Positions 184 to 38,291 of a stretch of DNA of 41,070 nucleotides are shown here, piece after piece. Position numbers and translations under genes: made by a program. Positions within the stretch are counted from its first letter, which is position 1. The number at the start of each line of letters is the position of its first letter. Under the pieces are notes generated by a model. It was given only the letters and a program-made list of their open reading frames with translations, had not been told where the DNA came from and searched no databases. The DNA is from Spirochaetota bacterium (lineage in GTDB: Bacteria; Spirochaetota; UBA12135; COTS27; JAFLEE01). The stretch covers positions 1-41,070 of the forward strand of contig JAFLEE010000047.1 of the NCBI GenBank assembly GCA_017302015.1, given 5' to 3'.

Positions 184-189
184 TAGAAT
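184..189 (+). promoter_or_regulatory. Candidate -10 box close to the start of the hydrolase gene
   Basis: TAGAAT lies 8 nt before the ATG at 198, and no Shine-Dalgarno sequence is visible between them. No good -35 element is seen. It is one of several start-proximal -10-like hexamers in this window, and the weakest in spacing. The preceding 183 nt hold no gene I can recognise. Confidence 0.3.
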
Positions 190-197
190 TTACCGAT

Positions 198-737
198 ATG
201 AAGCCCCTAGCCCTCGTCGTGGTGGACCTCCAGGAACGGCTCCTTCCCGTGATGCACGAGAAGGAAAGGCTCCTATCGCGGTGTCGCTTACTCCTAGGGG
301 GACTGACGGCCCTGGAAATCCCGACGCTGGCGACCCAGCAATATACGAAGGGCCTGGGGCCAACCGTCGCGGACCTCGCCCAGCTGCTTCCCCATTTCGA
401 TCCGATTGAAAAAACGGCCTTCTCTTGCTTCGGAGCTCCCGGGTTCCCGGAGCGGCTTAAGGCCACGGGTTGCCGCAGAGTCGCCCTCTGCGGCATCGAG
501 GCCCACGTCTGCGTGCGCCAAACGGCCCGGGATCTTTTGGCCGCGGGATACGAGGTCGATCTGGTGGTGGATGCCGTATCCTCCCGAGCCCCCGCCGATC
601 TGGATGCGGGCATCCGCCGGATCCTCGCCGAAGGGGCCAGGCCCGCCAGCGTCGAAATGATCCTCTTCGAGATCCTGGGCGATGCGAAGCACCCCCTCTT
701 TAAAGACATTTCGCGCCTCGTGAAGGAAGCGGGCTGA
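198..737 (+). CDS. Isochorismatase-family cysteine hydrolase
   Basis: A 179-residue single-domain protein of the isochorismatase-like hydrolase superfamily. These cytosolic enzymes cleave small amides or vinyl ethers, for example nicotinamide or ureidoacrylate. The triad is visible as D10 in VVVDLQ, K72 in EKTAF and C105 in the GIEAHVCV segment that carries the usual cis-peptide. The ATG at 198 starts directly at the first beta-strand; longer readings in frame add non-homologous sequence. The length matches the short YcaC-like subgroup, whose true substrates are mostly unknown, so I give no specific reaction. It converges on radA with 20 nt between the stops. There is no Shine-Dalgarno site, but a TAGAAT box lies just upstream. 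Confidence 0.85.
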   Translation: MKPLALVVVDLQERLLPVMHEKERLLSRCRLLLGGLTALEIPTLATQQYTKGLGPTVADLAQLLPHFDPIEKTAFSCFGAPGFPERLKATGCRRVALCGIEAHVCVRQTARDLLAAGYEVDLVVDAVSSRAPADLDAGIRRILAEGARPASVEMILFEILGDAKHPLFKDISRLVKEAG

Positions 738-757
738 GATCCCCGGAAGGGGCCGCC

Positions 758-2092
758 TCAAGGCTTTGCGCTTGCGTTCACCAGGGCGACCAGATCGCCC
801 AGGAGTTTCACGGGGTGGACGGCCCAATCCCCGTTCCCGGCGGCGCGGAATGAGCCCCAAGGTTCCAGCTCGCGCAGGCGGGCTTGGGCGTCCCGGACCG
901 GGCGGATGCGCCCGTTGAGGCCGACCTCGCCCAGGAAGAGGAGCGTGCGGGGGAGGGCCACGGACCGCACCGCGGAATAGAGGGCCGCGAGGATCGCCAG
1001 ATCCATCGCCACATCCTCATTCCTCACCCCCCCGGTGACGTTGACATAGAGGTCGAGGTTCCCCACGCTGAGGCCCGTGTAGCGCTCGAGGACCGCGACG
1101 AGGCGACCGAGTCGGTTGGGGCTCACGCCCTCGGCGCTGCGGCGGGGAAGGGCGAGGGGGGAGGCGACGCCCAAGGCCTCGATCTCGGAGAAGAAGATCC
1201 GCTTGCCGAGGAAATGCGGGTAGAACGCCGTGCCGACGGAGAGGGCTTCGCCGCCGGCGGCGTCCGGCGCGGCGAAGACCCGCTCTTGGGTGGGTCGTAG
1301 TCCCACCGAATCGAGGATGAAGACGGCGGCGGTGTCCGTCGGTCCGAAGCGGTTCTTGAGGGGACGGATGACGCGCAGATCCTGGAGGCCGTGGCCCTCC
1401 TCGCTCTCCATGAGGAGGGTGCCGTCGACGACGTGCTCGAGGAGTTTGGGCCCGGCGATTTCGCCGCCCTTGGTGATGTGGCCGGTCAACAGCATGGTTT
1501 TCCCGGTTTCCTTGGCGAGGGTCACCAGGCGCTGGGCGCAGGCGCGCAGTTGGACGGCGCTCCCCGGGGGATGGGGAAGGCTATCGTCGGTGAGGGTCTG
1601 CACCGAATCGATGAACACCACCGGCCAGGCGGGATCGGAGAGCACCGCTTCGAGGGCCCCGAGGCCCGTCTCCGAGACGAAGTGGAGGCGGGCGCCGTCG
1701 ATGCCCAGGCGCGCGGCGCGCTGGTTGACCTGGGAGGGGGTCTCCTCGCCGCAGACGTAGAGGACCGGCACCGGGAGCGAGGAGGCGAGTTGGAGGAGGA
1801 GGGTGGACTTCCCGACCCCGGGCTCACCGGAGAGCAGGTAGACGGACCCCTTGGCCCATCCGCCCCCGAACAATTGGTTGATTTCAGGGAGCGCGAATTG
1901 GAAACGGTCGTCCCCTCCCAAGGGGACCTTGGCGGCCGGGGTCGGCACGAGCGCGGCCGGCCGAGCTTTCCGGCCGGGGGCCTTGCTTTCGCGGAATTGG
2001 GCGAGGGTATTCCACGCCCCGCAGGAGCGGCAGCGCCCCTCCCATTTACTGTATTCGGCGCCGCAATCGCCGCAGACCCAGAGTTCGGCCAT
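758..2092 (-). CDS. radA: DNA repair protein RadA/Sms
   Basis: A 444-residue RadA, a RecA-related ATPase that drives branch migration during recombinational repair. The N-terminal zinc finger has C7, C10, C21 and C24. Walker A is GEPGVGKST at 89-97. The RadA-specific KNRFG motif is at 246-250, followed by the Lon-protease-like C-terminal domain, which contributes to DNA binding rather than proteolysis. Length and domain order are normal. It is the last gene of the mre operon, 9 nt after mreD, with an AGGA element in the gap. Coupling of radA to mreBCD is a local arrangement with no obvious functional link. Confidence 0.97.
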   Translation of the reverse strand: MAELWVCGDCGAEYSKWEGRCRSCGAWNTLAQFRESKAPGRKARPAALVPTPAAKVPLGGDDRFQFALPEINQLFGGGWAKGSVYLLSGEPGVGKSTLLLQLASSLPVPVLYVCGEETPSQVNQRAARLGIDGARLHFVSETGLGALEAVLSDPAWPVVFIDSVQTLTDDSLPHPPGSAVQLRACAQRLVTLAKETGKTMLLTGHITKGGEIAGPKLLEHVVDGTLLMESEEGHGLQDLRVIRPLKNRFGPTDTAAVFILDSVGLRPTQERVFAAPDAAGGEALSVGTAFYPHFLGKRIFFSEIEALGVASPLALPRRSAEGVSPNRLGRLVAVLERYTGLSVGNLDLYVNVTGGVRNEDVAMDLAILAALYSAVRSVALPRTLLFLGEVGLNGRIRPVRDAQARLRELEPWGSFRAAGNGDWAVHPVKLLGDLVALVNASAKP

Positions 2093-2101
2093 CGGGAAAT
2101 C

Positions 2102-2626
2102 CTAGCGCCGGGACCGCAGCGGCGAGTTCTCTTTCGCGCGCAGGGAGAGCCAGGCGACTCCGCTCATGAAGAGGAAGAAGGGGAACGCCAGGACCGTGGT
2201 GAAGATGATCTCCGGAAGGGCCGCATGCTGCACGAAGGCGAAGGCCTGGAAGCGGTCCCAGGTCCACACGCAGAGGGCGGTTTCCAACGCGCACTTGAGG
2301 GAGGAGAGGACGAGGGTCCAGACCAGGAAGACGGGGAGGAGGCGGAAAGAAAGGGCGCGCTGGAGGGCCGCCGCGGGGAGGCAGGCGAGGAAAAAGACGA
2401 GGGTGTACGTGCCGAAACGCGCGTTGGAGAGCAGATCGGCGGCGAGGCCGGCGACCGCGGGGACCCAAAGCGCGCCGGGGAGGGGCAGCCGCATGGCGGC
2501 CCAGAAAGCGACCAGGAGGGCGAGGTTGGGCCGGACTCCGGCGATTGTGCCCATCGCATGGACCATCGGGAGGGACTGGAGGAACACCGCGGCGATGGAG
2601 GCCAGCGCGAGGCATGCCTCCCTCAC
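2102..2626 (-). CDS. mreD: Rod shape-determining protein MreD
   Basis: A 174-residue very hydrophobic protein with about five predicted membrane segments, placed directly after mreC with an ATGA overlap of stop and start. MreD is the inner-membrane partner of MreC in the elongasome that guides lateral peptidoglycan synthesis. Sequence conservation in this family is low, so the call rests on size, hydropathy and position in an mreB-mreC-mreD order. The C-terminus ends in a short basic tail. The start overlapping mreC implies translational coupling. Confidence 0.9.
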   Translation of the reverse strand: MREACLALASIAAVFLQSLPMVHAMGTIAGVRPNLALLVAFWAAMRLPLPGALWVPAVAGLAADLLSNARFGTYTLVFFLACLPAAALQRALSFRLLPVFLVWTLVLSSLKCALETALCVWTWDRFQAFAFVQHAALPEIIFTTVLAFPFFLFMSGVAWLSLRAKENSPLRSRR

Positions 2627-3480
2627 GGCGGGGGTGCCTCTTCACGGGTGAGGATGAAGACCTCGTCGAGGGTGAAAAAATTGATGTGGGGCTGGCAATA
2701 CGTCTCTTGGAAGAGCCCGAAGCGCTTGCGGATGACCTCGGTGATGCGCCCGATGAAGATGCCGCGGGGATACTTCCCGCCCGTCCCCGCGGTCACGAGC
2801 ACGCGGCCTTCCAGGCGCTCCAGGCGCCGGTCCAAATATTCCACGGAGCAGGAGAGGTTGGCGGGGGCCTGGCCCCGCAGCAACCCGGCATCGCCCGTGT
2901 CCTCCAGCAGCACGCCCACCTGGCAGCGGGGGTCGATGAGGGTGAGCACCCGGCAGGTGTCGTATTCGGCGTCGTAGACTTTCCCCACGAGCCCGAGGAT
3001 GCCGTCGGTGAACCCGAGCACCGGGTCGCCCTCGCGCACCGATTGGGCGTGGCCGACATCGAGGGTGAGGGTGGTGAAGAGGTTCTGGGGATCCTTGAAG
3101 AGGATGCGGGCGGGGACGTTCTTCCAGGGCAGGCGCTTGCGGTAGCCGAGGGCGCGGGTGAGGTCATCCTTCTCGCGCCGCACCTGCTTCAGTTCGTCGT
3201 GGATGTATTGGAACGCCAGGAGTTCGCGGCGTGTTCGGGTGAGTTCGAGGCGCAGCGCCCCGAGTTCACGGGCCTGGTCGGCGCTGAAGGAAAGCCGGCC
3301 GCTCACCCAGCCGAAGCCCTTCACGGCGGGCCAAGCCGCCACATGGGCCGCGGCGCGGAGCGAACGGCCGAGGGCGGGGAACGACCCGGAGGCGGCGAGA
3401 TAGAAGAAGAGGAGGACGGCGAGGGTCGCGCCGCCGAAAAGGAGGGAGGTGCGGTGCCGCCGAAGGAATGGGTTCGCCAT
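2623..3480 (-). CDS. mreC: Rod shape-determining protein MreC
   Basis: A 285-residue bitopic protein: a short basic N-terminus, one membrane anchor near residues 12-32, a coiled-coil region about 75-110, then the periplasmic beta-rich MreC core (about 120-270). MreC links the cytoplasmic MreB filament to the periplasmic cell-wall synthases. The GDPVLGF and VLTLIDPRCQVGV segments are typical of the core. It follows mreB by 16 nt and overlaps mreD by 4 nt. The length is ordinary for the family. No penicillin-binding protein 2 or RodA gene follows, unlike the common mreBCD-pbp2-rodA order. Confidence 0.95.
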   Translation of the reverse strand: MANPFLRRHRTSLLFGGATLAVLLFFYLAASGSFPALGRSLRAAAHVAAWPAVKGFGWVSGRLSFSADQARELGALRLELTRTRRELLAFQYIHDELKQVRREKDDLTRALGYRKRLPWKNVPARILFKDPQNLFTTLTLDVGHAQSVREGDPVLGFTDGILGLVGKVYDAEYDTCRVLTLIDPRCQVGVLLEDTGDAGLLRGQAPANLSCSVEYLDRRLERLEGRVLVTAGTGGKYPRGIFIGRITEVIRKRFGLFQETYCQPHINFFTLDEVFILTREEAPPP

Positions 3481-3496
3481 GGCCGGCCGGGCCCCG

Positions 3497-4540
3497 TCAG
3501 ATCTTCAGGTATTCGCGCTTATGCCCCATCGTCTTGATGAGGCCCAAGTAGATGCCGCAGCCGTTGACCACGCAGTGGAGCGGATCCTGGGCGACGATGA
3601 CGGGCACCCCGGTCTCGTCGCTCAAGTGGTTCTTGAGGCCCCGGATCAGGGCCCCGCCGCCGGAGAGGACGATCCCGCGCTCGATGATGTCGGCGGCGAG
3701 TTCGGGCGGGGTCTGCTCGAGGGCGGCCTTCACGGCGCCGATGACGAGGCCCAGGGGCTCCTCGATGGCGTCGCGCATCTCGGCGCGGGTGATGGGTTGG
3801 GTGCGGGGGAGGCCGCTCATGGGGTCGCGCCCCTTGACCTCGTAGGTCTCGTCGCCCTTGAAGTTGTAGACGTCGATGAACTCGATCTTGATGTTCTCGG
3901 CGGTGGTCTCGCCGATGATCAGGTTGTGGTTCTTGCGCATGAACTCCTGGATGGCCTTGTCGAACTCGTCGCCGGCCACGCGGATGCTGTTCTCGACCAC
4001 CATGCTGCCCAGGGAGATCACGGCGATCTCGGTGGTGCCGCCGCCGATGTCGACGATCATGTTCCCGGCCGGCTCGTCCACCGGCATGCGGGCGCCGATG
4101 GCCGCGGCCCGCGGTTCTTCGATGAGGAACACTTCGCGCGCGCCGGCCTGCTCGCAGGATTCCTTCACCGCGCGCTTCTCCACCTCGGTGATGCCGGAGG
4201 GCACGCCGATGACGATGCGCGGCTTGATCAGGTTGCGGCGCTTGGAGACGTTGTGGATGAAGTAGCGGATCATCTTCTCGACGATGTCGAAGTCGGCGAT
4301 GACCCCGTCGCGCATGGGGCGCACGGCCACGATATTGCCCGGGGTGCGGCCGAGCATGCGCTTGGCCTCCCGGCCGACGGCGAGGACGCGGTTGGTGGTC
4401 TTCTCGATGGCGACGACGCTGGGTTCGTTGAGCACGATGCCCTCGCCCTCGACGTAGACGAGCGTATTGGCGGTGCCGAGGTCGATCCCGAAATCGTTCG
4501 AGAACACCGACAGCAATTGGTTCATCTGGTTGCGGAACAT
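3497..4540 (-). CDS. mreB: Rod shape-determining actin homologue MreB
   Basis: A 347-residue bacterial actin, the usual family length. The phosphate-1 motif is [13 protein letters not shown] near residues 16-28, and the adenosine and phosphate-2 motifs appear as [11 protein letters not shown] and [11 protein letters not shown]. It polymerises under the inner membrane and orients cell-wall synthesis. The reading frame stays open well upstream of 4540, but the sequence before it is not MreB-like. The ATG at 4540 has a GGAG site 5 nt upstream, so I use that start. It follows the TPR gene by 17 nt and precedes mreC by 16 nt. Confidence 0.98.
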
Positions 4541-4557
4541 GAAGTCTCCGGGGGGAA

Positions 4558-5457
4558 TTAGAACATGCGCGCCAAGGATTGACGCAGCACGAGGTTGGTC
4601 TGGGATTTGAGGAGGGCCTCGTACACGAGGGTGCGGGCCTTGTAGATCTGGTTGTTCTGGAAGAGGAAGGCGCCGTAGTCGGAGATCCATTCGGTATCGT
4701 CGGGCATGCGGTGGAGAAGGTAGAGGTAGACGAACTGCTTCTCCTCGGGCAATTGGAACTCGCCCAGGAGGTTGAGGAGGAGTCGGGCGGTGCGCCGCAG
4801 GGACGGCCCGTTGGGCACGGTGACGAGGAGGTCCTTGAGTTCGCCCTGGGCGCGCAGTTTCTCCCCCCGGGCGAGGTCCACGAGGACCTTGCGGATGCGG
4901 TACTCGGGTTCGTCGGGGTGCAGGGCCACGAGGCGCAGGGCGTGGGTCTCGGCGTCGTTGAAACGCTTCTTCGCCAGGCACATCGTGTAGAGGAGTTCGG
5001 AACGCTCCGCCTCGAGGGCCGCGGGCGGGCGGGCGCGGCCGAGGGCCTGGATCCCGTCGAGGTAGGTGTCGGGGCCGAGGTTGAAATAGGCGAGTCCCCG
5101 GGCGTATTCGTAGGCGACCCCGGAAGAGAACCAGGAGCGGCCCAGTTCGGCGGTCGCTTGGAGCACCCGGTGCCAACGGCGGGGGGAATCTTCCATCATG
5201 CCGAGGCGGCATTGGAGCTCCACCTCGAAGGCCAGGGCGCGCGAGCGGGGGCCCCAGGTTTTGAGGATGCTCCCGAGGCGGGCCTCGCTCTCGGCGTAGG
5301 CCTTGCGCTCGAAGAGCGCGCGGGCATCGGCGAGGGCGCGCTGGAAATTGATCTCGTAGAGCGCGCGATAGGAGAGCCAGGGGATCGCCGCCAAGGCGAA
5401 GAGGATCCAGAGGAGGGCCTTCGGATCGATTTTCTTGCGGATGACGACGTGCTCCAC
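4558..5457 (-). CDS. Membrane-anchored TPR-like protein upstream of mreB
   Basis: A 299-residue protein of no named family that I recognise. A single membrane segment lies near residues 14-32 ([15 protein letters not shown]) after a basic N-terminus. The rest is alpha-helical with degenerate tetratricopeptide-like units, for example around 40-70, 120-150, 155-190 and 250-290. Such proteins usually act as scaffolds. The start is a GTG placed one base after the stop of the previous gene, so its translation is probably coupled. Its position between a membrane PH-like protein and mreB suggests a role in cell-shape control, but that is inference from neighbours only. Confidence 0.75.
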
Positions 5458-5458
5458 C

Positions 5459-6076
5459 CTAATGGTCCTTGAGGAAGACGTGGTAGATGAAATCGCTCAC
5501 CAATTCGGGGTTCTCGATGGCGAAGGCATGGCAGCCCTCGCGATCGAAGAGGATCAGGTGGCCGAACTTGACCTTGATCTCGGTGATCTCGGACCAGGCG
5601 ACCTTATTGCGGCTGCGGACGTTCTCGAAGAGGAGCATGCGAGAGGTGAAGAAGAGGCGCCCCCGGCCGATATTCTCGAAATCTTTCAGGCTTTGGGCGT
5701 CGGAGAAGACCAGATCGATATTGACGTTGCGGACCTGGGTGGTGAGGGGGAAGAACCAGTATTGGCATTTGAGGTAGAAGTGCAGGAGTTCGCCGGGTTC
5801 CAGGGGGATGACCGTCTTTTTCCCGTGGACGACGGGCACCATCATGACGTCCCGCTCCCCGACCATCTGATCGCGCTTCATCTCGTCGATGCGCCGGCGG
5901 AAAAAATCGCGGGTGTTGGTGAGATAATTGCGCACCGCGAGCAGGTAGAGCACCAGCAGCATCATCACCACGGCGACGGTCGCCAAGATGAGAAGGAGCG
6001 CCAATGTGTTGGACTGGGCGACGACGGACGTCAGTCGTCCCAGCAGGGAAGCCAGGAAATTGGAGAACACGTCCAC
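5459..6076 (-). CDS. Membrane protein with a PH/GRAM-like C-terminal domain
   Basis: A 205-residue protein, function unknown. After an N-terminal stretch there is one strong membrane helix near residues 21-47, then a basic linker (RRRIDEMKRD) and a soluble domain of about 140 residues. Its end (GRLFFTSRMLLFENV, then a strand-rich part and an alpha-helix) looks like a bacterial PH or GRAM fold; this is my reading of the pattern. I choose the GTG at 6076 because GATAAT ends 7 nt before it. A second GTG at 6070, with AGGGG 5 nt upstream, is a close alternative. A longer reading to an ATG at 6184 would run into the divergent gene. It is first in the mre operon. Confidence 0.7.
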   Translation of the reverse strand: MDVFSNFLASLLGRLTSVVAQSNTLALLLILATVAVVMMLLVLYLLAVRNYLTNTRDFFRRRIDEMKRDQMVGERDVMMVPVVHGKKTVIPLEPGELLHFYLKCQYWFFPLTTQVRNVNIDLVFSDAQSLKDFENIGRGRLFFTSRMLLFENVRSRNKVAWSEITEIKVKFGHLILFDREGCHAFAIENPELVSDFIYHVFLKDH

Positions 6077-6083
6077 CCCTAAT

Positions 6084-6089
6084 ATTATC
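6084..6089 (-). promoter_or_regulatory. Candidate -10 box for the mre operon, start-proximal
   Basis: GATAAT on the minus strand ends 7 nt before the GTG at 6076. This predicts a transcript starting at or next to the start codon. No convincing -35 element is present at 16-18 nt spacing. Confidence 0.4.
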
Positions 6090-6164
6090 CTGAAAAGCGT
6101 CTTTTTTGGGGTCTCAGGAGGAAGTTGACAGGGGAGCGATGGTGCGTTTTTTGACAAAAACAGG

Positions 6165-6170
6165 GATAAT
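6165..6170 (+). promoter_or_regulatory. Candidate -10 box for the steroid-reductase-like gene
   Basis: GATAAT lies 5 nt before the ATG at 6176, with no Shine-Dalgarno sequence between. Two TTGACA hexamers lie upstream (6125-6130 and 6151-6156), but neither is at a standard -35 distance from this box. The element predicts a leaderless mRNA. Confidence 0.4.
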
Positions 6171-6175
6171 GGACC

Positions 6176-6934
6176 ATGGGACACGGGTGGTTTTTCTGGT
6201 TTCTCACCTCTTGGACGGCGCTGGGGGGGATCGTCTTCGTTCTCCTGTTATTCATCCCGGCCCCTTATGGGCGATATGATCGAAAGGGATGGGGCCCCGA
6301 ATTACGCCCCCGAACGGCCTGGCTCCTCATGGAGGCCCCTGCCTCCCTCCTCATGCTCTTCTATTGGGCCACTTCACGGAATCCCTTCCACCCGGTTTCC
6401 CTGGTTTTTATCGCCATTTGGCAGAGTCATTACATCTATCGCGCGTTTATATACCCTTTCAGACTGCCCGCCGGTAGCCACGCCATGCCCCTTTCCGTCG
6501 TGCTCTTCGGCCTCGTCTTCAATGGGGTGAACACCCTCATGAACGGCTACGGGATCTTCTGGGTGGGGTCGATTCCGGACACCACCTGGTTCCTCGATTG
6601 GCGTTTCCTGCTCGGCCTGGCGTTCTTTTTCTTAGGGATGTACGTCAATCGGCGGGCCGATGATCTTCTTCGAACGCAGCGCACGGCCCAACCGGGGAAA
6701 TATTTCATCCCCCAGGGCGGGCCGTTTCGATGGCTTTCATGCCCGAATTATTCCGGTGAGATCTTCCAGTGGTGCGGTTGGGCGATCCTGACTTGGTCCT
6801 GGCCGGCCGGGACCTTTGCGCTCTGGACGTTCGTGAACTTGGGTCCGCGGATTTTCAGCCATCATCGATGGTATCGGGCGACGTTTCCTGGGTATCCGAA
6901 GGAGCGGAAGGCGTTGGTGCCTTATTTGTGGTAG
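6176..6934 (+). CDS. Steroid 5-alpha-reductase-like membrane oxidoreductase
   Basis: A 252-residue polytopic protein with about six or seven membrane helices, matching the steroid 5-alpha-reductase family (SRD5A, related to DUF1295). These enzymes use NADPH to reduce the delta-4 double bond of 3-oxo steroids. Residues known in the human type 2 enzyme have counterparts here: E53 (MEAPA) for E57, H85-Y86 and R89 (HYIYR) for the Y91/R94 segment, N158 and D162 (NRRAD), N191 and E195 in NYSGEI, and H229/H230 in FSHHRWY. The C-terminus YPKERKALVPYLW strongly resembles the animal enzymes. Length is near 254. No sterol genes are nearby, so the natural substrate is open; another enone lipid is possible. 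The gene stands alone and is divergent from the mre operon. Confidence 0.85.
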   Translation: MGHGWFFWFLTSWTALGGIVFVLLLFIPAPYGRYDRKGWGPELRPRTAWLLMEAPASLLMLFYWATSRNPFHPVSLVFIAIWQSHYIYRAFIYPFRLPAGSHAMPLSVVLFGLVFNGVNTLMNGYGIFWVGSIPDTTWFLDWRFLLGLAFFFLGMYVNRRADDLLRTQRTAQPGKYFIPQGGPFRWLSCPNYSGEIFQWCGWAILTWSWPAGTFALWTFVNLGPRIFSHHRWYRATFPGYPKERKALVPYLW

Positions 6935-7045
6935 GGGACTCACGAAAAAGGCTAATATCACAAAATAGCCCACGAAACACGAAAAGTTTCACATACCCAA
7001 ACCCGCGAGCCCCCGCCCAATGCGCCCGCTTCGACCTCTCCCCGC

Positions 7046-7924
7046 TCACCCCATGATCTTCTGCAATTCCGCAAAAGTCGCCTGAATATCCGACTTCACG
7101 GTCTCCACGGTTCCCGTCAAGTCGCATGCCTTGAAATCCACGGCGCTGAAGGCGTGCGGCGGGCTCATGCGGGTTTCTCCGCTGGCGCCGACGGCCTGGT
7201 GGATGCAGACCTGGTTGGCCTTCCCGACGATCGTGACGAGTTTTTGGTGGGCCAGGTGGGCCTTCGGAAGCAGGTGGGGTTTGTGGTGCCAAGCGATGGC
7301 GAGGCGGAGTTCGTCGGGGAGATTCCAGGCATCGGCCAGGTAGAGGCCCACATCGCAATGGCTGAAGCCGAAGACGGCCTCTTCCTGCTCGAGCAGCAGG
7401 GTATTGGTTCGGTCCGCCGCGAGCAGGGCCTTGGTGAAGTCTTCCGTGAGGTGCTGGGAGAGCACGAGGCGGCCCACGTCGTGGAGCATCCCTCCCAGGA
7501 AGCAGCCTTCGGTGTCTTTCACGTCGAGCACCTGGGCGAACCGGCGAGCCGTGAAGCCGACGCCGAGGGAGTGGACCCAAAATTGGGCGGGGTTGAACAG
7601 GGTGGAGGCCTTAGTTTGGCCGAAGGCCCGCACCACGGAGAGCCCGGAGAGCAGGCTCGCGATCGCCCGCAGCCCGAGGAAGGTCGCCGCAGACTTGATG
7701 TTGGTGACCTTCACCCTTAGCCCGAAGGCCGCAGAATTGACCAGGCGCAGCAGGCTCATCGTCATGGCCGGGTCGGAGGAGAGGATATGGGCGATGTCGT
7801 CCATCGACGATTTCGGGTCCTGCAGGAGCTTCTGCAGTTTCCCGTAGAGGAGGGGCATCGAGGGGAGTTTGTCCATCCCCTGAAGTCGCTCCGAGATGAG
7901 GGCTTGGGTGCGTTCTTCCAACAT
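7046..7924 (-). CDS. HDOD-domain signalling protein
   Basis: A 292-residue protein consisting almost entirely of an HDOD domain (about residues 15-215), a catalytically degraded relative of HD phosphohydrolases found in signalling and regulatory proteins. Typical segments are LPSMPLLYGKL, ILSSDPAMTMSLLRLVNSAAFG and GGMLHDVGRLVL. A C-terminal tail of about 75 residues is unassigned. HDOD proteins often act in chemotaxis, two-component or cyclic-di-GMP circuits through protein contacts. No partner domain is fused here. It lies 25 nt after the flavoprotein gene on the same strand and could be the end of that operon. A TAAAAT box at 7941-7946 may give it its own short-leader transcript. Confidence 0.9.
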   Translation of the reverse strand: MLEERTQALISERLQGMDKLPSMPLLYGKLQKLLQDPKSSMDDIAHILSSDPAMTMSLLRLVNSAAFGLRVKVTNIKSAATFLGLRAIASLLSGLSVVRAFGQTKASTLFNPAQFWVHSLGVGFTARRFAQVLDVKDTEGCFLGGMLHDVGRLVLSQHLTEDFTKALLAADRTNTLLLEQEEAVFGFSHCDVGLYLADAWNLPDELRLAIAWHHKPHLLPKAHLAHQKLVTIVGKANQVCIHQAVGASGETRMSPPHAFSAVDFKACDLTGTVETVKSDIQATFAELQKIMG

Positions 7925-7949
7925 GGCAAATGAACGCCCTATTTTAACC

Positions 7950-8576: not shown

Positions 8577-8591
8577 AGGAGGCGGGCCCCT

Positions 8592-15241: not shown

Positions 15242-16075
15242 TTAAAATTCCAAGTTGTCGATGAGGCGGGTCTTGCCGAGATAGGCGGCGGCGAGGGCCA
15301 CGCAGGCGTCCCCGGCGACCGCGCGCTCGGAGAGCGTTTCGGCGGCCCGGATTTCCAGGTAATCCACCTTGAAGCCGGAGGCCTCGAGCGTTTGGCGTCC
15401 CCAATGGGTGAGCGCCTCGACCCGGGTCTCCTCCCGGGAGTGCGCCCTTCGACGCATTTCGGCGAGGGTGCGGTGGAGGGCCGGCGCGGCCTCCAATTCA
15501 CCGTGGGTGAGGTAGCTGTTTCGGCTGGAGAGGGCCAACCCGGAGGGAAGGCGGACGGTGGGCCGACCGAGCACCTCCACGGGGAGGTCGAGATCCTGGG
15601 CCATGCGGCGGATGAGGACGAATTGCTGGTAATCCTTCTTGCCGAAATACGCCCGCGTCGGCCGCGTCCGCTGGAACAGTTTGAGGACCACGGTGAGGAC
15701 GCCGTCGAAATGCCCGGGCCGCGACCTGCCGCAGAGGATGTCGCAGGACCCGCGATTCACCACCCAGGTCTCGGTGCCCTCCCCGTACATGTCGCGGGCG
15801 TCCGGCGCATAGAGGAGATCGACCCCGAGCGCTTCCAGGTTCCGCCGGTCGCTTTCGAAATCCCGGGGATAGCGCGCCAGATCCTCCGTCGGGCCGAATT
15901 GGGTCGGGTTTACGAAGATGGAAACGGCGGTGAGGTCGTTGGCGCCGCGGCTTTCTCGGACGAGGGAAAAATGCCCCTCGTGGAGATAGCCCATGGTGGG
16001 CACGAAGCCGAGGGTCTTCCCCCCGCATGCGTCCCGCCAGGCGGCCAATTCGGCCCGGGTCGCGACGATTTTCAC
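15242..16075 (-). CDS. panC: Pantothenate synthetase
   Basis: A 277-residue PanC, which condenses pantoate and beta-alanine using ATP in vitamin B5 and CoA synthesis. Motifs are PTMG at 26-29 and HEGH at 32-35 (the HIGH-type ATP site), KKDYQQ at 146-151, and the SSRNSYL segment at 183-189. The start is a GTG at 16075 whose MKIV beginning is the standard PanC N-terminus. There is no Shine-Dalgarno site. Instead, the stop of an 18-codon upstream ORF overlaps this GTG. panB and panD are not in the window. Confidence 0.97.
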   Translation of the reverse strand: MKIVATRAELAAWRDACGGKTLGFVPTMGYLHEGHFSLVRESRGANDLTAVSIFVNPTQFGPTEDLARYPRDFESDRRNLEALGVDLLYAPDARDMYGEGTETWVVNRGSCDILCGRSRPGHFDGVLTVVLKLFQRTRPTRAYFGKKDYQQFVLIRRMAQDLDLPVEVLGRPTVRLPSGLALSSRNSYLTHGELEAAPALHRTLAEMRRRAHSREETRVEALTHWGRQTLEASGFKVDYLEIRAAETLSERAVAGDACVALAAAYLGKTRLIDNLEF

Positions 16076-16128
16076 GCGGCCACCGGGGCGCGCGGGCTTT
16101 CTGCTGGGGGGAGAATCGACGAGGCCAT
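16072..16128 (-). CDS. Candidate 18-residue leader ORF coupled to panC
   Basis: ATG at 16128 opens an 18-codon ORF (Met-Ala-Ser-Ser-Ile-Leu, then rich in Pro and Ala) ending in TGA at 16072-16074, inside the GTGA that also contains the panC start. A TGC-TATAAT element ends 6 nt before the ATG, so the mRNA should begin at the A of this ATG. The peptide has no run of a regulatory amino acid, so classical attenuation is not obvious. Delivery of ribosomes to the panC GTG is the simplest role. The panC homology begins only at the GTG, so this is not an N-terminal extension. Confidence 0.5.
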   Translation of the reverse strand: MASSILPPAESPRAPVAA

Positions 16129-16134: not shown

Positions 16135-16143
16135 ATTATAGCA
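16135..16143 (-). promoter_or_regulatory. Extended -10 promoter of the panC operon
   Basis: Minus-strand TGC-TATAAT: an exact consensus -10 hexamer (16140-16135) with an extended TGn. The ATG at 16128 follows after 6 nt, which places the expected transcription start on the start codon. There is no -35 match at 17 nt, as often seen with extended -10 promoters. Confidence 0.6.
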
Positions 16144-25978: not shown

Positions 25979-25992
25979 GGGGATCCTTGCCG

Positions 25993-29129: not shown

Positions 29130-29160
29130 GGCGGTCCGCCAGGATTAGCGGCGGCGCCTC
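29128..29160. terminator. Possible hairpin between convergent pfp and glycosidase genes
   Basis: GAGGCG (29128-29133) pairs with CGCCTC (29155-29160), and CCGC/GCGG inside them extend the fold. There is no T-run, so an intrinsic terminator is doubtful. It is the only structured element in the 46-nt convergent gap. Confidence 0.3.
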
Positions 29161-29175
29161 GAGGTTCGCCGTGCC

Positions 29176-31968: not shown

Positions 31969-32053
31969 GGAGGCACTCCTTTAGGGGCTGGGGGAATAGT
32001 GCGGCTTGTGGACGAACGCCGCAAGGAACAAAGCGGCAAAAAAGGTGGATAAA

Positions 32054-32070
32054 TCCGCAATCTATGCGGA
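32054..32070. promoter_or_regulatory. Candidate operator of the AraC-type regulator
   Basis: TCCGCA-N5-TGCGGA, a 6-bp dyad just upstream of the -10 box of the regulator gene, where a -35 element would be. A second dyad, TGCGGC-N12-GCCGCA, lies at 32000-32023 in the same divergent region. Both share a GCGG/CCGC core, so they may bind the same protein. Confidence 0.45.
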
Positions 32071-32077
32071 ATGGGTG

Positions 32078-32083
32078 TAGAAT
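32078..32083 (+). promoter_or_regulatory. Start-proximal -10 box of the AraC-type regulator
   Basis: TAGAAT lies 5 nt before the ATG at 32089. There is no Shine-Dalgarno site and no -35 match, and the dyad at 32054-32070 occupies that place. Confidence 0.45.
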
Positions 32084-32088
32084 CATCC

Positions 32089-32928
32089 ATGGGGATCATC
32101 GGGGAATCCTTCCTCTGGGCCGAGGGTCTCCTCGGGGCGCGGCTCTGCGTCCACGATTATCAAGACGCCCTGTGGGACCTCGTGGAGGTTCGCTTCCGCA
32201 AGCACGGTCACCCCCTTTGCGTGGCCGCCAAGGCGCTCAAAATACGCCATTGCCTGCAAGCGGACCAAGTCGCCGTGCGCGAACGGCTCCAAAGGGCGCC
32301 TGCTTTCTTCTGGAAGCGCTGCCATGCGGGGTACCTCGAGGCGGTGGCCCCAGTGCGGTTTCGCGGCCGCAATGTCGGTGCGCTCTTCGCCGGCCCCTGG
32401 TCGCCGCGATCCGCCTTGGGAAAGGCGCGCGAGGCCCTCGGGCTCCTCTCGCCGACGCCGAAAACCACCGTGGACCTCGGCCTTGCCGTGCTCGACGAGG
32501 GGGCCCTGGTTCAAGTCGAGCGGGTGCTTGCGATCCTGGCGGCCCTCCTCGAGCGGGAACTGGGGAATCAGCATTCCGCCCGCCCGGGAGGAAGCGACCG
32601 CCGCGCCGCCATCTCCAATTTCATCGAGCATGGATTCCACGATGAACTCCGCCTCTCCCAATTGGCCCGGGCACTGGGGCTCTCCGATTCCCGGGCGAGC
32701 CAATTGGTGCGCACCCTTTTCCGCGCCACCTTCCCCCAACTTGTCGCCTCCCGGCGCCTGGAATACGCCAGCGACCTGCTCCGGGAAACGGCCCTTCCCG
32801 TCGCCGCCGTGGCCGCCCACGCGGGGTTTCCCGACCCGCGCTATTTCCAGCGCCTCTTCCGACGCCGCTTCTCCCTAAGCCCGCGCCGCTACCGCGTCAA
32901 ATCGGGCCACCGACCCCGCTCGGTCTGA
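32089..32928 (+). CDS. AraC-family regulator with PocR-like sensor domain
   Basis: A 279-residue regulator. The N-terminal ~150 residues resemble the PocR sensory domain, with His/Cys positions such as HGHPLCVAAK, RHC and the segment FFWKRCHAGYLEAVAPV followed by GRNVGALFAGPW. The C-terminal ~105 residues form the AraC double helix-turn-helix (LARALGLSDSRASQLVR and VAAHAGFPDPRYFQRLFRRRFSLSPRRYR). It is divergent from the glycoside hydrolase, so control of that gene by a sugar or other ligand is likely, though inferred. The start at 32089 is favoured by the -10 box 5 nt upstream; an in-frame ATG at 32071 is the alternative. Confidence 0.88.
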   Translation: MGIIGESFLWAEGLLGARLCVHDYQDALWDLVEVRFRKHGHPLCVAAKALKIRHCLQADQVAVRERLQRAPAFFWKRCHAGYLEAVAPVRFRGRNVGALFAGPWSPRSALGKAREALGLLSPTPKTTVDLGLAVLDEGALVQVERVLAILAALLERELGNQHSARPGGSDRRAAISNFIEHGFHDELRLSQLARALGLSDSRASQLVRTLFRATFPQLVASRRLEYASDLLRETALPVAAVAAHAGFPDPRYFQRLFRRRFSLSPRRYRVKSGHRPRSV

Positions 32929-33040
32929 GCGTGCCGGGTCCCCGGCCTCGTTTCATCGGAAAATTCGACCTTGGCGCCCAGGGCGCTATCTTCTTTCCCA
33001 CCCGCCCGGCGAGCCGGATCCCGGGGCCTGGAGTATGAGC

Positions 33041-34534
33041 ATGGAGTTTCCCGAACTGACGGCATCCCGCGGCCCCGGCGGCGCGAAGGATTGCCTCGTG
33101 GTGTTCACCGGCCGCGACCGCCGCGGCGAGGTCCTCTTCCATGCCGATCGGCCGGCCGTGGAAGCGAAGGTTCGGAGCCTCGTGAAGAGCGGGGAGTACA
33201 CCGGGAAGGAAAACGCGACCCTCGTCCTACACCAACTGGACGGATGGGAGAAGATCATCGTCGCGGGGCTCCCCGAGAACAAGGCCGCCTTCCCCGGGGA
33301 AACCCTGCGTCGCTTGGGGGCCCAATTGGCGCCCCTGGTGGAGCGCTCGCCCGCCGTGGCCCTCGATCTGCTCGCGGCGCCGGAGATCTCAAAATCTTGC
33401 GGGGTGCCCATCGAGACCTGCCTCCGTTGCTTGGCCGAGGGCTTGCTGCTCAAAGCCTACCGGTTCAACAAGTATAAGAAGGCGAAGAGCGACGACAACG
33501 AGCGCCGGCGCCTCAAACGGGTATCTTTTTTAAGCGCCTCCGGGAAGGCGGCCCAAATCCTCGCCGAAACGGCCACGATCTGCGAGGGCACCGCCCTGGC
33601 CCGCGACCTCGTCAACGAACCCAGCAACGTGCTCAATGCCGTGACCCTCGCGGCCCGGGCCAAGGCTCTCGGCCTGGAGAGCGGTTTCAAGGTGACCGTG
33701 TTCGACAAGAAGAAGATCGAGCAATTGGGCATGGGTGGCCTGCTGGCCGTCAACCGGGGCTCGGCCGTACCGCCGCGGCTGATTATCGGCGAGCACCGGC
33801 CCAAGGGGGCGCGAAAGACCGTGCTGCTCGTGGGGAAGGGCCTGACCTTCGATACCGGCGGGGTCTCCATCAAGCCCGCCGCCGGCATGGGCGAGATGAA
33901 ATGCGATATGGCCGGTTCCGCCGCCGTGCTGGGGGCGCTCTTTGTGGCCGCCCGGCTGAAGCTCCCGGTGAACGTCATCGGGGTGATCCCCGCCACCGAC
34001 AATAAGACCGGCAGCAACGCCCAGAACCCGGGCGACATCATCACCCTGATGAACGGGACCACCGTCGAGGTCGACAATACCGACGCGGAGGGCCGGCTCG
34101 TGTTGGGCGATGCGCTCCATTACGGGATCACCCGCTTCGAACCCGACCTCACCATCGATCTCGCCACCCTCACGGGGGCCTGCGTCGTCGCCCTGGGGCA
34201 ATGGGCGGCCGGCCTCCTCACCAACGACGAGGCGGCGAAGGCAGCGCTCATGCGCGCCGGCGACGCCACCCACGAGCGCGTCTGGCCGCTGCCGATGTAC
34301 GACGAGTACGCCGAGCAACTCAAGAGCCACCCGGCCGACGTGAAGAACGTGGGAGGCCGCGCCGCCGGGGCCATCACCGCCGCCAAATTCCTCGAAAAAT
34401 TCGTCTCGGGAAAGCCGTGGGCCCACCTCGATATCGCGGGCCCGGCCTTCCTCGACGGCCCCTCCCATTACCTCCCCAAAGAGGGCACGGGCTACGGCGT
34501 CAGGCTCCTCACCGAGTTCCTCAAGGCCTTTTGA
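33041..34534 (+). CDS. pepA: Leucyl aminopeptidase (M17)
   Basis: A 497-residue cytosolic M17 aminopeptidase, which removes N-terminal residues using two divalent metals and works as a hexamer. Metal and catalytic residues are clear: K266 and D271 in GKGLTFDTGG, K278, D289 and the signature NTDAEGRLVL at 346-355 with D348, E350 and R352. The N-terminal domain (1-165) is variable, as usual. GGAG lies 7 nt before the ATG at 33041; an ATG two codons earlier is too close to it. Its stop overlaps the start of queG. Confidence 0.96.
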   Translation: MEFPELTASRGPGGAKDCLVVFTGRDRRGEVLFHADRPAVEAKVRSLVKSGEYTGKENATLVLHQLDGWEKIIVAGLPENKAAFPGETLRRLGAQLAPLVERSPAVALDLLAAPEISKSCGVPIETCLRCLAEGLLLKAYRFNKYKKAKSDDNERRRLKRVSFLSASGKAAQILAETATICEGTALARDLVNEPSNVLNAVTLAARAKALGLESGFKVTVFDKKKIEQLGMGGLLAVNRGSAVPPRLIIGEHRPKGARKTVLLVGKGLTFDTGGVSIKPAAGMGEMKCDMAGSAAVLGALFVAARLKLPVNVIGVIPATDNKTGSNAQNPGDIITLMNGTTVEVDNTDAEGRLVLGDALHYGITRFEPDLTIDLATLTGACVVALGQWAAGLLTNDEAAKAALMRAGDATHERVWPLPMYDEYAEQLKSHPADVKNVGGRAAGAITAAKFLEKFVSGKPWAHLDIAGPAFLDGPSHYLPKEGTGYGVRLLTEFLKAF

Positions 34535-35493
34535 GTTCCCCGGCGCCCCGACCGTTGGATCCCGGGGCCTTGGCAAGCGCCTTGGACCGCGCGGCCTCCC
34601 GCCTGGGGTTCGCCGCCTGGGGCGTGGCGGAGGCCCATGAAAGTACGGAGGCCCCCGCGCTCTCGGCCTGGCTCGACGCCGGCTACCACGCCGACATGGA
34701 TTGGATGGATCGCCATGCCGAGATGCGCGCCGATCCCCGCCTCCTGTTCCCGGGGTGCCGGAGCGTCATCATGTTCGCCGACTCCTACCGCGACCCCGAA
34801 GGCCACGACGGGAGCGTGGTGGCCCGCTACGCCTGCGGCAACGATTACCACCGGACGATGAAGGACCGCATCCACGAAGTCTGGGCCGAACTACGGGCCC
34901 TGGCGCCGGCGGCCAAGGGGCGGGTGGTGGCCGATAGCGCGCCCCTCATGGAGCATTATTGGGCCGCGCGCAGCGGCGTGGGCTGGGCGGGCAAGCACAC
35001 CCTCACCATCACCGAAGAGGCGGGTTCCTTCGTAACGCTCGGGTGCTTGTTGACCGATCTGGCGCTCCCGACCTCCAAGCCTTCGGTGGACCGCTGCGGC
35101 ACCTGCCGGGCCTGCCTCGATGCCTGCCCCACCGGCGCCATCGTGGCGGAGCGCCTCGTCGATGCCCGCCGGTGCCTCAGCTATCTCACCATCGAAAAAA
35201 AAGGCCCCCTGAGCGCCGAGGAGGGCGCCGCCCTCGGCGCTCGGGTCTTCGGCTGCGACGCGTGCCAAGATGCCTGCCCGTGGAACCAGACCCCGCGCTC
35301 CCATCGGGTCTTGAAACCCGCCGCCTACGGAAGAAGCATGGACCCCCGCGTCACGCCGGATCCCCGCCAATGGCTTGCCGAGTCATGCGCAGAGGAGAGC
35401 CTCTTCAAGGAGCGCCTCGGTGCAACGCCGCTTACGCGCATCGGACGCGACGGTCTCAAGCGAAACCTCGAGGCCAGTATAAGGCCTGCATGA
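34531..35493 (+). CDS. queG: Epoxyqueuosine reductase
   Basis: A 320-residue QueG, the cobalamin and iron-sulfur enzyme that makes the last step of queuosine in tRNA. The catalytic Asp is D135 in VVADSAPL. Two 4Fe-4S sites are visible: C189, C192, C195 and C199 in CGTCRACLDACP, and C242, C245 and C249 in CDACQDACPWN, with C215 nearby. The start is a TTG at 34531 whose TTGA overlaps the pepA stop, with AAGG 4 nt upstream, so the two genes are translationally coupled. The C-terminal HEAT-like part of long QueG forms is absent, as in many bacteria. Confidence 0.93.
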   Translation: MSSPAPRPLDPGALASALDRAASRLGFAAWGVAEAHESTEAPALSAWLDAGYHADMDWMDRHAEMRADPRLLFPGCRSVIMFADSYRDPEGHDGSVVARYACGNDYHRTMKDRIHEVWAELRALAPAAKGRVVADSAPLMEHYWAARSGVGWAGKHTLTITEEAGSFVTLGCLLTDLALPTSKPSVDRCGTCRACLDACPTGAIVAERLVDARRCLSYLTIEKKGPLSAEEGAALGARVFGCDACQDACPWNQTPRSHRVLKPAAYGRSMDPRVTPDPRQWLAESCAEESLFKERLGATPLTRIGRDGLKRNLEASIRPA

Positions 35494-35671
35494 AAGGCTC
35501 CTCCATAATGCCTCCAATGGTGGGCCACATCGTTTTTTATTGAATGATCCTTCCATATTCCGAGGGCCCGTTCCTCTTGTGTCTCAAAGACTCACTCGCA
35601 AGTATCAAGACGAATCTTCTTGAGAATGTGTAATCTTTTGTTGATTTTTCTTTTGTATTGAATCATTTTCC

Positions 35672-35684
35672 GATAACGGTTATC
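35672..35684. repeat. Short palindrome in the AT-rich region
   Basis: GATAAC-G-GTTATC, a perfect 6-bp dyad about one base, 16 nt before the longer palindrome. It may be a regulator site; the GATAA core recurs in the neighbouring repeat as CGATAA. Confidence 0.45.
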
Positions 35685-35700
35685 CTCGATCTGATTGGGA

Positions 35701-35725
35701 ATTTATCGAATTAATTTCGATAAAT
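35701..35725. promoter_or_regulatory. 25-bp palindromic operator candidate
   Basis: ATTTATCGAA-TTAAT-TTCGATAAAT: two perfect 10-bp arms with a 5-nt centre. It ends 4 nt before the -35 hexamer of the promoter at 35730, a position typical for an activator or a repressor at that promoter. No T-run follows, so it is not a terminator. Confidence 0.65.
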
Positions 35726-35729
35726 CGGG

Positions 35730-35759
35730 TTGATCGTGCGGGTCAATATCAGATAAAAT
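35730..35759 (+). promoter_or_regulatory. Sigma70-like promoter upstream of the LuxR-type gene
   Basis: TTGATC (35730-35735), an 18-nt spacer and TAAAAT (35754-35759). It predicts a start near 35766 and a leader of about 95-120 nt that includes the mini-ORF at 35843. Confidence 0.55.
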
Positions 35760-35842
35760 TAACTTCTATGGAAAGTAACATGGGTGAGACGAGTCCGTCC
35801 GAGTAACCCCTGTATCTACTGTCCACTTTGGAAGGATCCGAA

Positions 35843-35863
35843 GTGAACGAGTTCCCAATTTGA
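35843..35863 (+). CDS. Candidate six-codon mini-ORF before the LuxR-type gene
   Basis: GTG at 35843 has a strong GAAGGA site 6 nt upstream and reads Met-Asn-Glu-Phe-Pro-Ile, then TGA at 35861-35863. That TGA overlaps a TTG (35860) in frame with the regulator gene, as TTGA. If TTG is the regulator start, the mini-ORF would couple ribosomes to it, like the leader ORF before panC. Nothing else explains the strong ribosome site. Confidence 0.35.
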   Translation: MNEFPI

Positions 35864-35883
35864 CCCCGATCGACTTTCGTTCA

Positions 35884-36603
35884 ATGGATTCCGTTCTGAC
35901 TGCCATGCCAAATCCCGAATCGCTTTCACCCTGGACCGAACTGGTCATGGACGGCCTCATCCTCGTGGACGAGGACGGCACGATCATCGGTTGGAACTCG
36001 GCCATGGAGCGCATCTCGGGCCGGTCCGCGGCGAAAACCCTCGGCGTGCCGGTGTGGATCGTGCTCCACGAATCCATTCCCGCGGCGTTGCGCGCCAATA
36101 CGAAACTCGACGAATTGCGCCGGGTCGTGTTGAACGCGCTCAACACGGGCGAATTGCCCTGGACCCGGGGAGCCGAGCACCACCTCGAGGCGGTCGCCGG
36201 AACCCCGATGGCCCGGGTTCGACAGCAATTCATGCTCATCCGCACCGCCAAAGGCCATTCCCTAATGGTCACCGTCGCGCTGGCTTCCGACGAGGGCGGA
36301 AAAGCGGGGAAGGGGAGCCGCAAGCCGGCGGCCAGCAGTCGACCGGGCAAGGTTTCCATCGGGGCCCTCCGCAATAACCCCCTCCTGCTCGAGAAGGAAC
36401 TCACCCTGCGCGAGATCGAGATCGTCTCTGGCGTGCTCAGCGGAAAGCGCAATGCGGCCATCGCCGAAAAATTGGGGATTTCTGAGGCCACCGTGAAGCG
36501 CCACCTCGTCCACGTCTTCCGGAAGATGGGCCTGGGGTCGCGAACCGAACTCATCTGGCTGCTCCTCGCCCCCGGCAATTCGCTCTCCCGCCCGAAATCC
36601 TGA
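35884..36603 (+). CDS. PAS-LuxR transcriptional regulator
   Basis: A 239-residue regulator (from the ATG at 35884). An N-terminal PAS fold (about 20-115) has LVMDGLILVDEDGTIIGWNSAMERISG, here typical of PAS sensors; a linker rich in Gly, Lys and Ser follows. The C-terminal LuxR/GerE helix-turn-helix (about 178-232) has LTLREIEIVSGVLSG and ISEATVKRHLVHVFRKMGL. No kinase or receiver is fused. There is no ribosome site at this ATG; a TTG at 35860, overlapping the mini-ORF stop, is an alternative start. The next gene is a stand-alone HPt protein 69 nt downstream, which suggests a phosphorelay nearby. Confidence 0.85.
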   Translation: MDSVLTAMPNPESLSPWTELVMDGLILVDEDGTIIGWNSAMERISGRSAAKTLGVPVWIVLHESIPAALRANTKLDELRRVVLNALNTGELPWTRGAEHHLEAVAGTPMARVRQQFMLIRTAKGHSLMVTVALASDEGGKAGKGSRKPAASSRPGKVSIGALRNNPLLLEKELTLREIEIVSGVLSGKRNAAIAEKLGISEATVKRHLVHVFRKMGLGSRTELIWLLLAPGNSLSRPKS

Positions 36604-36660
36604 CCCCCGCCGCCGCGGCGCGGCGCAACCAAGCAGTCCGTCCCCGGCGTCGTCTCGGTG

Positions 36661-36666
36661 TACAAT
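36661..36666 (+). promoter_or_regulatory. Start-proximal -10 box of the HPt gene
   Basis: TACAAT lies 6 nt before the ATG at 36673, with six cytosines between and no Shine-Dalgarno site. It predicts a transcript starting at the ATG. No -35 match is seen. Confidence 0.5.
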
Positions 36667-36672
36667 CCCCCC

Positions 36673-37002
36673 ATGGAAACGGATACGGCGGGGGGGGGAG
36701 AGCGGCCCGTGGCGCGGGTGGATGCGGTGCTTCGGGATCTCATCCCCGAATACCTCCAGAACCGCCGCCTCGACGTGGCGAAACTGCGCGCCTGGGGGAT
36801 GGAAGGCCGGGGGGAGGAGATGAGGCGCCTGTTGCACCAAATGAAGGGCAGCGGGGGCATGTACGGCTTTCCCCGCATCACCGAACTCGCCCGGGCCATG
36901 GAAGCCCGGGTGGCCGCGGGGGAGGGCCCGATGATCGGCCCCCTGCTGGGCGAACTCGAGGCCTACGTGGATGGGGTCGTCGTGGAATACGTGGAGGAAT
37001 GA
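36673..37002 (+). CDS. Stand-alone histidine phosphotransfer (HPt) protein
   Basis: A 109-residue protein that is essentially one HPt domain, a four-helix bundle that carries phosphoryl groups between receiver domains in phosphorelays. The phospho-acceptor His is in LLHQMKGSGGMYGFP, close to the usual HxxKG-S/G pattern; the following helix is RITELARAMEARVAAGE. No hybrid kinase or receiver gene is in the window. It overlaps the thioesterase gene by one base. The start is set by the -10 box 6 nt upstream. Confidence 0.85.
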   Translation: METDTAGGGERPVARVDAVLRDLIPEYLQNRRLDVAKLRAWGMEGRGEEMRRLLHQMKGSGGMYGFPRITELARAMEARVAAGEGPMIGPLLGELEAYVDGVVVEYVEE

Positions 37003-37427
37003 TGCCCGCCTATGAGAAACCGGTGGTCGTGCGCATGCACCACACCGACGCCGCCGGGATCCTCTTTTTCGGGAAACTCTTCGAACTCGCCGACGAGGTG
37101 CTCGAGGAGGCGATGGAGCATTGCGGCCTGCCCCCCGGGGAGGCCCTGCGCCGGGGCTCCGAACTCACCCCCGTGGTCCACGCCGAGGGCGACTACAAGC
37201 GGCCCATGTTCCTCGGCTCGCGGCTTACGGCGCGGGCGCGCATCGAGGCCTTCGGGAACACCTCGCTGCGTTGGCGCATCGATTTCGTCGAGGCGGGCGG
37301 CGAAGTGGCCGCCACCGTGGGCCTGGTGCAGGTCCTCGTGAGCCGCAAGAACGGGCGGAAACTCTCGCTCTCGAAAGAAATCAGGGAAAAACTCGGGGCC
37401 ATCCTCGAGCCCGCGCCCGCCGCCTAA
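37002..37427 (+). CDS. 4HBT-family acyl-CoA thioesterase
   Basis: A 141-residue hot-dog-fold thioesterase of the 4-hydroxybenzoyl-CoA type. The catalytic segment is MHHTDAAGILFFGKLFELADEVLEE, read as H-T-D with the conserved Asp, and resembles 1,4-dihydroxy-2-naphthoyl-CoA hydrolases of menaquinone or phylloquinone synthesis, as well as YbgC. I cannot fix the acyl group. GGAGG lies 4 nt before the ATG at 37002; an ATG at 36999 is too close. Overlap with the HPt gene implies one transcript. The stop codon lies within the A-run of the following terminator. Confidence 0.88.
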   Translation: MPAYEKPVVVRMHHTDAAGILFFGKLFELADEVLEEAMEHCGLPPGEALRRGSELTPVVHAEGDYKRPMFLGSRLTARARIEAFGNTSLRWRIDFVEAGGEVAATVGLVQVLVSRKNGRKLSLSKEIREKLGAILEPAPAA

Positions 37428-37452
37428 AAAAAAAGCCCGGCGGGGGCCGGGC
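37426..37452 (-). terminator. Intrinsic terminator of the binding-protein gene
   Basis: On the minus strand, GCCCGGC-CCCC-GCCGGGC (7-bp stem, 37452-37435) is followed by nine T (37434-37426). It closes the binding-protein gene that ends at 37475. The A-run on the plus strand includes the thioesterase stop codon. Confidence 0.93.
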
Positions 37453-37474
37453 TCGCGGGTGGGGAAGGCCCCTT

Positions 37475-38257
37475 CTATTGGGCGATCTTCAAGTACTCGT
37501 CGTAACTGATGCCCTGGATGTACTTCGTCCAGACGTTTGAAAACAGGCCGCTCTTCGCATCACGGCGGGCTTCCTCCAAGAACTCGGTGAGCTTCAGGGC
37601 CAGGGTGGCCTGGGATTTTTCGACCCCCCACCCGATCATCTGCCGGGCGCTGATGGCCTTATGGAGGGATAACTCGTCTTCGAGGAGCTTCTCGGCGGCG
37701 AGGTTGGAGTCGAGGATGGTGACGGTGCCCTTGTCGGCCATGAGGTCTTTGATCTGGTCGGCGGTGGTCGCGCTGAAGAAGTACTTGAAGGCGACCTTGG
37801 CCTCTTTTTCCTTCTCTTGGATGCCGGCGTAGTAGGAGGAATCCTTGGCGACGATGATGGTCTCGTCGGCGAGCCGGGCGAGGGTGGTGAGGGGGATATG
37901 GCCCTTCTTGGTGACGAGGATCTGCTTGATGGCGAGGAACTCGACGAACTTCATCTTCTCGGCCCGTTCGGGGAGGATCGTCACGTTATCGCAGACGACA
38001 TCGGCCTCGTTGAAGAGGCCGGAGGTGAAATAATCGTTGAGGGTGCTCTTCACCACCAATTTCAGGGTGAGGCCCTGCTTCTTGGCGAAGGCCCGGGCGA
38101 GGTCGTAGTGGAAGCCCGAGTTCTTCTCGGGGGAGAGGACGCCCTCGCGCACGCGGATGGCGATGCGGAGTTCCTTGGAGGCGACGATCTCTTCCCAGGA
38201 ACGGGCCGCGAAAAGGGACGCGCACAGGAGGAGGAGCGGTAGGATGCGGTTTTTCAT
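37475..38257 (-). CDS. Periplasmic solute-binding protein, family 3 type
   Basis: A 260-residue protein with a signal peptide (MKNRILPLLLLCASLFAA) and a type II periplasmic-binding fold (SBP_bac_3), as in amino acid ABC transporters and the N-terminal part of MltF. Segments such as LRIAIRVREG, GFHYDLARAFAKKQGL and ADVVCDNVTILPERAEKMKFVEF are typical. No permease or ATPase gene is adjacent, so it may serve a distant transporter or a sensor. The start ATG lies 5 nt after a CATAAT box and has no Shine-Dalgarno site, which predicts a leaderless mRNA. Confidence 0.88.
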   Translation of the reverse strand: MKNRILPLLLLCASLFAARSWEEIVASKELRIAIRVREGVLSPEKNSGFHYDLARAFAKKQGLTLKLVVKSTLNDYFTSGLFNEADVVCDNVTILPERAEKMKFVEFLAIKQILVTKKGHIPLTTLARLADETIIVAKDSSYYAGIQEKEKEAKVAFKYFFSATTADQIKDLMADKGTVTILDSNLAAEKLLEDELSLHKAISARQMIGWGVEKSQATLALKLTEFLEEARRDAKSGLFSNVWTKYIQGISYDEYLKIAQ

Positions 38258-38262
38258 GGCTT

Positions 38263-38291
38263 ATTATGGCCCGAATTCAGGGGCCTTTCAA
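38263..38291 (-). promoter_or_regulatory. Sigma70 promoter giving a leaderless binding-protein mRNA
   Basis: Minus strand TTGAAA (38291-38286), exact 17-nt spacer, CATAAT (38268-38263), then 5 nt to the ATG at 38257. Both hexamers are close to consensus and the spacing is ideal, so this is the best single case for a leaderless transcript in the window. Confidence 0.7.

Follow-up and report, generated by a model that had tools for sequence, protein, structure and literature searches.

Sequence-only reading of the window (the whole stretch of DNA that was analysed, 41,070 nucleotides) had placed seven hexamers resembling a bacterial -10 element shortly before start codons, and had predicted from them that some genes give rise to leaderless mRNAs. 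All seven hexamers are indeed found at these places; the distances given below are counted from the end of the hexamer to the start codon.

184..189, plus strand: TAGAAT -10 box, 8 nt before ATG 198 of an isochorismatase-family gene (198-737); a weaker case, at the window edge
6084..6089, minus strand: GATAAT -10 box, 7 nt before GTG 6076 of the gene 6076-5459, which forms a divergent pair with 6176
6165..6170, plus strand: GATAAT -10 box, 5 nt before ATG 6176 of a steroid 5-alpha-reductase-like gene (6176-6934); divergent, 99-nt gap
15242..16075, minus strand: panC, pantoate-beta-alanine ligase, with a GTG start (Pfam PF02569, Pantoate_ligase, E 1.4e-96, residues 3-275)
16072..16128, minus strand: 18-codon ORF MASSILPPAESPRAPVAA, whose TGA overlaps the panC GTG 16075 by 4 nt (GTGA)
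16135..16140, minus strand: TATAAT, 6 nt before ATG 16128 and preceded by TGC, which makes it an extended -10; probable panC promoter
32078..32083, plus strand: TAGAAT -10 box, 5 nt before ATG 32089 of an AraC-type regulator gene (32089-32928); divergent
36661..36666, plus strand: TACAAT -10 box, 6 nt before ATG 36673 of the gene of an Hpt-domain protein, ending at 37002
38263..38268, minus strand: CATAAT -10 box, 5 nt before ATG 38257 of a solute-binding protein gene (38257-37475), with a TTGAAA 17 nt ahead of the box

The TTGAAA announced ahead of the last box is present, with its 17-nt spacer. Five of the proposed start codons (6176, 6076, 32089, 36673 and 38257) are good and 198 is plausible, but ATG 16128 is not a gene start: the frame that it opens is only 18 codons long, and panC starts at GTG 16075, 53 nt downstream, where a Shine-Dalgarno (SD) site is not seen. 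The TATAAT at 16135..16140 is the probable promoter of panC, not that of a gene starting at 16128, and the 18-codon ORF is possibly a leaderless leader ORF. ATG 36673 has a competing in-frame GTG just upstream, at 36658, and is the start only if the TACAAT box is a promoter. GTG 6076 additionally has an AGGA 11 nt upstream.

The boxes had also been said to precede, without exception, the first genes of transcription units. This holds for the divergent pair 6076/6176 (99 nt apart), for 32089 (divergent) and for 38257 (269-nt gap), so that first-gene status is clear for four of the six window genes; it is doubtful for 36673, whose same-strand neighbour ends at 36603, and the unit position of 198 cannot be judged at the window edge. 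The pair 6076/6176 (window 5459-6934) has the particularity that a single 99-nt divergent gap is common to two start-proximal -10 boxes, one on each strand.

The window is one contig of an assembly of 5.43 Mb in 165 contigs, with a GC content of 65% across the 1.51 Mb examined. A 39-base stretch of the 16S rRNA, used as a phylum signature, has matches confined to 12 loci, all named Spirochaetes or Treponema, and the best 16S identity among those 12 loci is about 79% (long alignments), which makes the source organism, as judged from its 16S, a deep Spirochaetota lineage. The anti-SD sequence is intact at the 3' end of the 16S.

The search for the motif before start codons, proposed in the sequence-only reading, covered 1111 gene starts in 1.51 Mb, or 28% of the genome. 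Genes were called with a self-trained hexamer coding model which is blind to the upstream sequence, and the chance expectation was obtained from dinucleotide-shuffled upstream regions (200 shuffles). TANAAT is found 5-8 nt before 48 of the 1111 starts, compared to 2.7 ± 1.6 in the shuffled regions (maximum 7 in 200), and 47 of these 48 genes lie outside the window. A lack of enrichment, which the sequence-only reading had named as a refutation, is thus not what the data show. The same test with TANNNT gives 105 genes of the 1111, versus 26 ± 5. By distance, TANAAT precedes only 3 genes in all at 0-4 nt, then 23, 7, 5 and 13 genes at 5, 6, 7 and 8 nt, for a background of 1.14 per position; the peak survives when the longest-ORF starts are used (21, 9, 1 and 10 genes at 5, 6, 7 and 8 nt). 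Over the whole genome, TANAATN5ATG has 93 matches, compared to 4 for the reversed-pattern control, and among 100 TATAATN(0-28)ATG places listed the spacing is 5 nt in 16, 6 nt in 6, 7 nt in 2 and 8 nt in 7. From the strict motif (about 5%) and from the TANNNT excess (7%), it appears that the leaderless class probably comprises about 5 to 7% of genes.

Two spacings are preferred, 5 nt and 8 nt, while 6-7 nt is less frequent (chi-square p = 0.001).

This genome also has SD tetramers (GGAG, GAGG or AGGA), most often 5-8 nt before the start, with 131, 199 and 128 genes at 5, 6 and 7 nt, which supports the earlier claim that two initiation classes coexist. An SD site at the usual distance occurs in none of the 55 genes of the strict set, compared to 39% of the other genes, but the hexamer occupies the place of the SD site and the two observations are not independent: a masked control expects just 0.7 of 55. 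The avoidance of SD sites was thus dropped as independent support.

Several properties of the boxes are those of promoters. Most of the 55 strict genes are either divergent or first in their unit. The ratio of first-in-unit to inner genes is 42:2 in the set and 613:292 otherwise (Fisher 1.7e-5). The TG of an extended -10 element is found in 11 of the 55 strict genes, versus 3.3% in the background (p = 1.6e-6). A -35 element with at least 4 matches out of 6 is present in 18% of the set; the background has 8% (p = 0.01), and among -10 boxes located 14-59 nt upstream the share is 36%. Since the -35 element is barely above background, and below that of the distant boxes, the main contribution comes from the -10 element, sometimes extended; the same has been described for Deinococcus-Thermus.

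It is very probable, on these grounds, that sigma70-type promoters with a start-proximal -10 element produce leaderless mRNAs in this organism, and that this class, mostly made of first genes of units, coexists with SD-led genes. The promoter would consist of TANAAT (often TGnTANAAT), with a weak or absent -35 element; 5-8 nt separate the hexamer from the start codon. Transcription by RNA polymerase would begin at the A or G of that codon, or within about 3 nt of it, the resulting mRNA would have neither a leader nor an SD site, and ribosomes would accept it via its 5'-terminal start codon. Against this proposal, a simple preference for a single start site does not predict the double peak at 5 and 8 nt and the low counts at 6-7 nt, and the same pipeline gives no such peak in G024, a relative of the same order, or in G042.

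The boxes could also be real promoters of genes whose true starts lie farther downstream, in which case the leaders of the transcripts would be short and the nearest ATG incidental. ATG 16128, with panC starting downstream of it, is such a case, and for some genes another start is available 12-30 nt downstream. An incidental ATG, however, would not confine the peak to 5-8 nt (48 genes, versus 3 at 0-4 nt). Moreover, in 41 of the 55 genes the reading frame offers no start codon farther upstream, and in several proteins of the set the Pfam domain begins near the N-terminus (peptidyl-tRNA hydrolase, residues 3-186, from profile position 1; MTHFR, 4-282; FGGY kinase, 5-250). As a general explanation, downstream starts are thus unlikely. 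It is still less likely that the AT-rich hexamer is a translation signal, acting through S1 binding or the avoidance of structure before the start, although non-SD genes have been suggested to use AT- or U-rich stretches around -10 as RPS1 sites (PMC5397173). What is seen here is one specific hexamer, with TATAAT as its leading form and with the TG of extended promoters; the bases adjoining the start are C-rich, not U-rich, and the hexamer is almost missing inside operons (at 5-8 nt, only 2 of 294 inner genes have it), although ribosomes would require a translation signal there as well. The reversed-pattern control can admittedly mislead in a compositionally biased genome, as it does in G042, where TATAATN5ATG has 114 matches versus 29 for the reversed pattern (about 4-fold), yet not one of the 7 sites inspected coincides with a called gene start and TANAAT is never found 5-8 nt before the sampled starts. 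Chance is nevertheless a next to negligible explanation here, given the gene-based dinucleotide shuffle and the location of nearly all of the genes outside the window.

Three relatives were analysed with the same pipeline, over 400 kb each. No excess of TANAAT at 5-8 nt is found in the 400 kb of G024 (same order, 39% GC; 3 observed, 4.4 expected), or in those of G042 (family f21, 52% GC; 0 observed, 2.4 expected); the test has less power in AT-rich relatives. In G006, another high-GC genome of the phylum (62.5% GC), TANNNT is clearly enriched at a spacing of exactly 7 nt: 18 genes versus 2.8 expected in 400 kb. Since there is no excess in G024 and G042 and the peak of G006 is at 7 nt, the leaderless trait, as predicted from these samples, has a patchy distribution among Spirochaetota: it is strong in the present genome, occurs at a different spacing in G006, and is absent in the sampled parts of G024 and G042. 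The -35 boxes of G006 have 4-6 matches in 13 of the 18 genes, and are far better than those of the window's genome. The reversed-pattern control was dropped as a phylum-wide measure of leaderlessness on account of its behaviour in G042.

The arrangement at panC is a weaker lead. The -10 boxes whose nearby ATG, GTG or TTG is out of frame with the next gene were collected; with strict hexamers, short ORFs whose stop has exactly 4 nt in common with the next start follow 7 of 23 boxes at 5-8 nt, the panC box among them, versus 21 of 225 boxes at other distances (p = 0.008; a post hoc, exploratory test). With the weaker TANNNT motif the excess of such overlaps is not significant (p = 0.13), and 4-nt overlaps often arise by chance because 43% of starts are NTGA. 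Comparable mini-ORFs with a 4-nt overlap are seen behind start-proximal -10 boxes in contigs C1, C24, C78, C87 and C89. As a tentative and rather doubtful proposal, some boxes may serve leaderless mini-ORFs (13-37 codons) with a 4-nt NTGA overlap, and termination-reinitiation would then feed genes such as the SD-less panC. In E. coli, a 5'-terminal AUG can begin a short ORF ahead of the main gene, with possible effects on the expression of that gene (PMC4965119). These 5'-terminal uAUG ORFs resemble the arrangement of 16128 and panC, but the E. coli main gene has an SD site, whereas none is seen for panC, whose start overlaps the stop of the short ORF.

Zheng et al. (2011, PMC3160421) predicted leaderless genes in 6 of 18 Spirochaetes genomes, with a mean of 3.9% and a range of 1.8-6.9%. 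The present case is similar in that a TA-like -10 signal adjoins the start codon of a minority of genes. It differs in that this deep lineage is outside the genera then sequenced, that the rate of about 5-7% is at the top of the range, and that the motif is TANAAT-like despite a GC content of 65%. In Leptospira interrogans, Zhukova et al. (2017, PMC5243855) found transcription start sites less than 10 nt from the start codon in about 440 genes, with the site at 0 or -1 in 184-244 of these. Both organisms belong to the same phylum, but the Leptospira starts were mapped by dRNA-seq in an AT-rich pathogen, whereas those considered here are sequence-based predictions for a distant, GC-rich relative. 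The earlier view that leaderless genes would be informative in the present lineage is thus weakened, since they had already been predicted in Spirochaetes and mapped in Leptospira.

Outside the phylum, Deinococcus-Thermus also has -10 boxes adjoining the ORF, an optional -35 element and leaderless mRNAs, but in about 30% of ORFs, compared to about 5-7% here (PMC12340547). In Mycobacterium tuberculosis, about a quarter of the genes with a primary transcription start site are leaderless, with a TANNNT -10 box and no conserved -35 element (PMC3898074). The TANNNT box is shared with the present genome, in which the share of leaderless genes is smaller, the hexamer is nearer to TATAAT, and an extended -10 element is found in 20% of the set, versus 7% of the TANNNT promoters of M. 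tuberculosis (PMC3898074).

The genome described here is a well-supported new example of leaderless genes, a mode known in other bacteria including spirochaetes, and the mechanism is not new. What it provides is a class of predicted leaderless genes, statistically firm, in a lineage deep within Spirochaetota. For annotation, gene finders trained on SD sites are prone to misplace such starts. The patchiness of the trait in the phylum bears on the origin of leaderless initiation, which could be a remnant of an ancestral state or could accompany changes in promoters and base composition.
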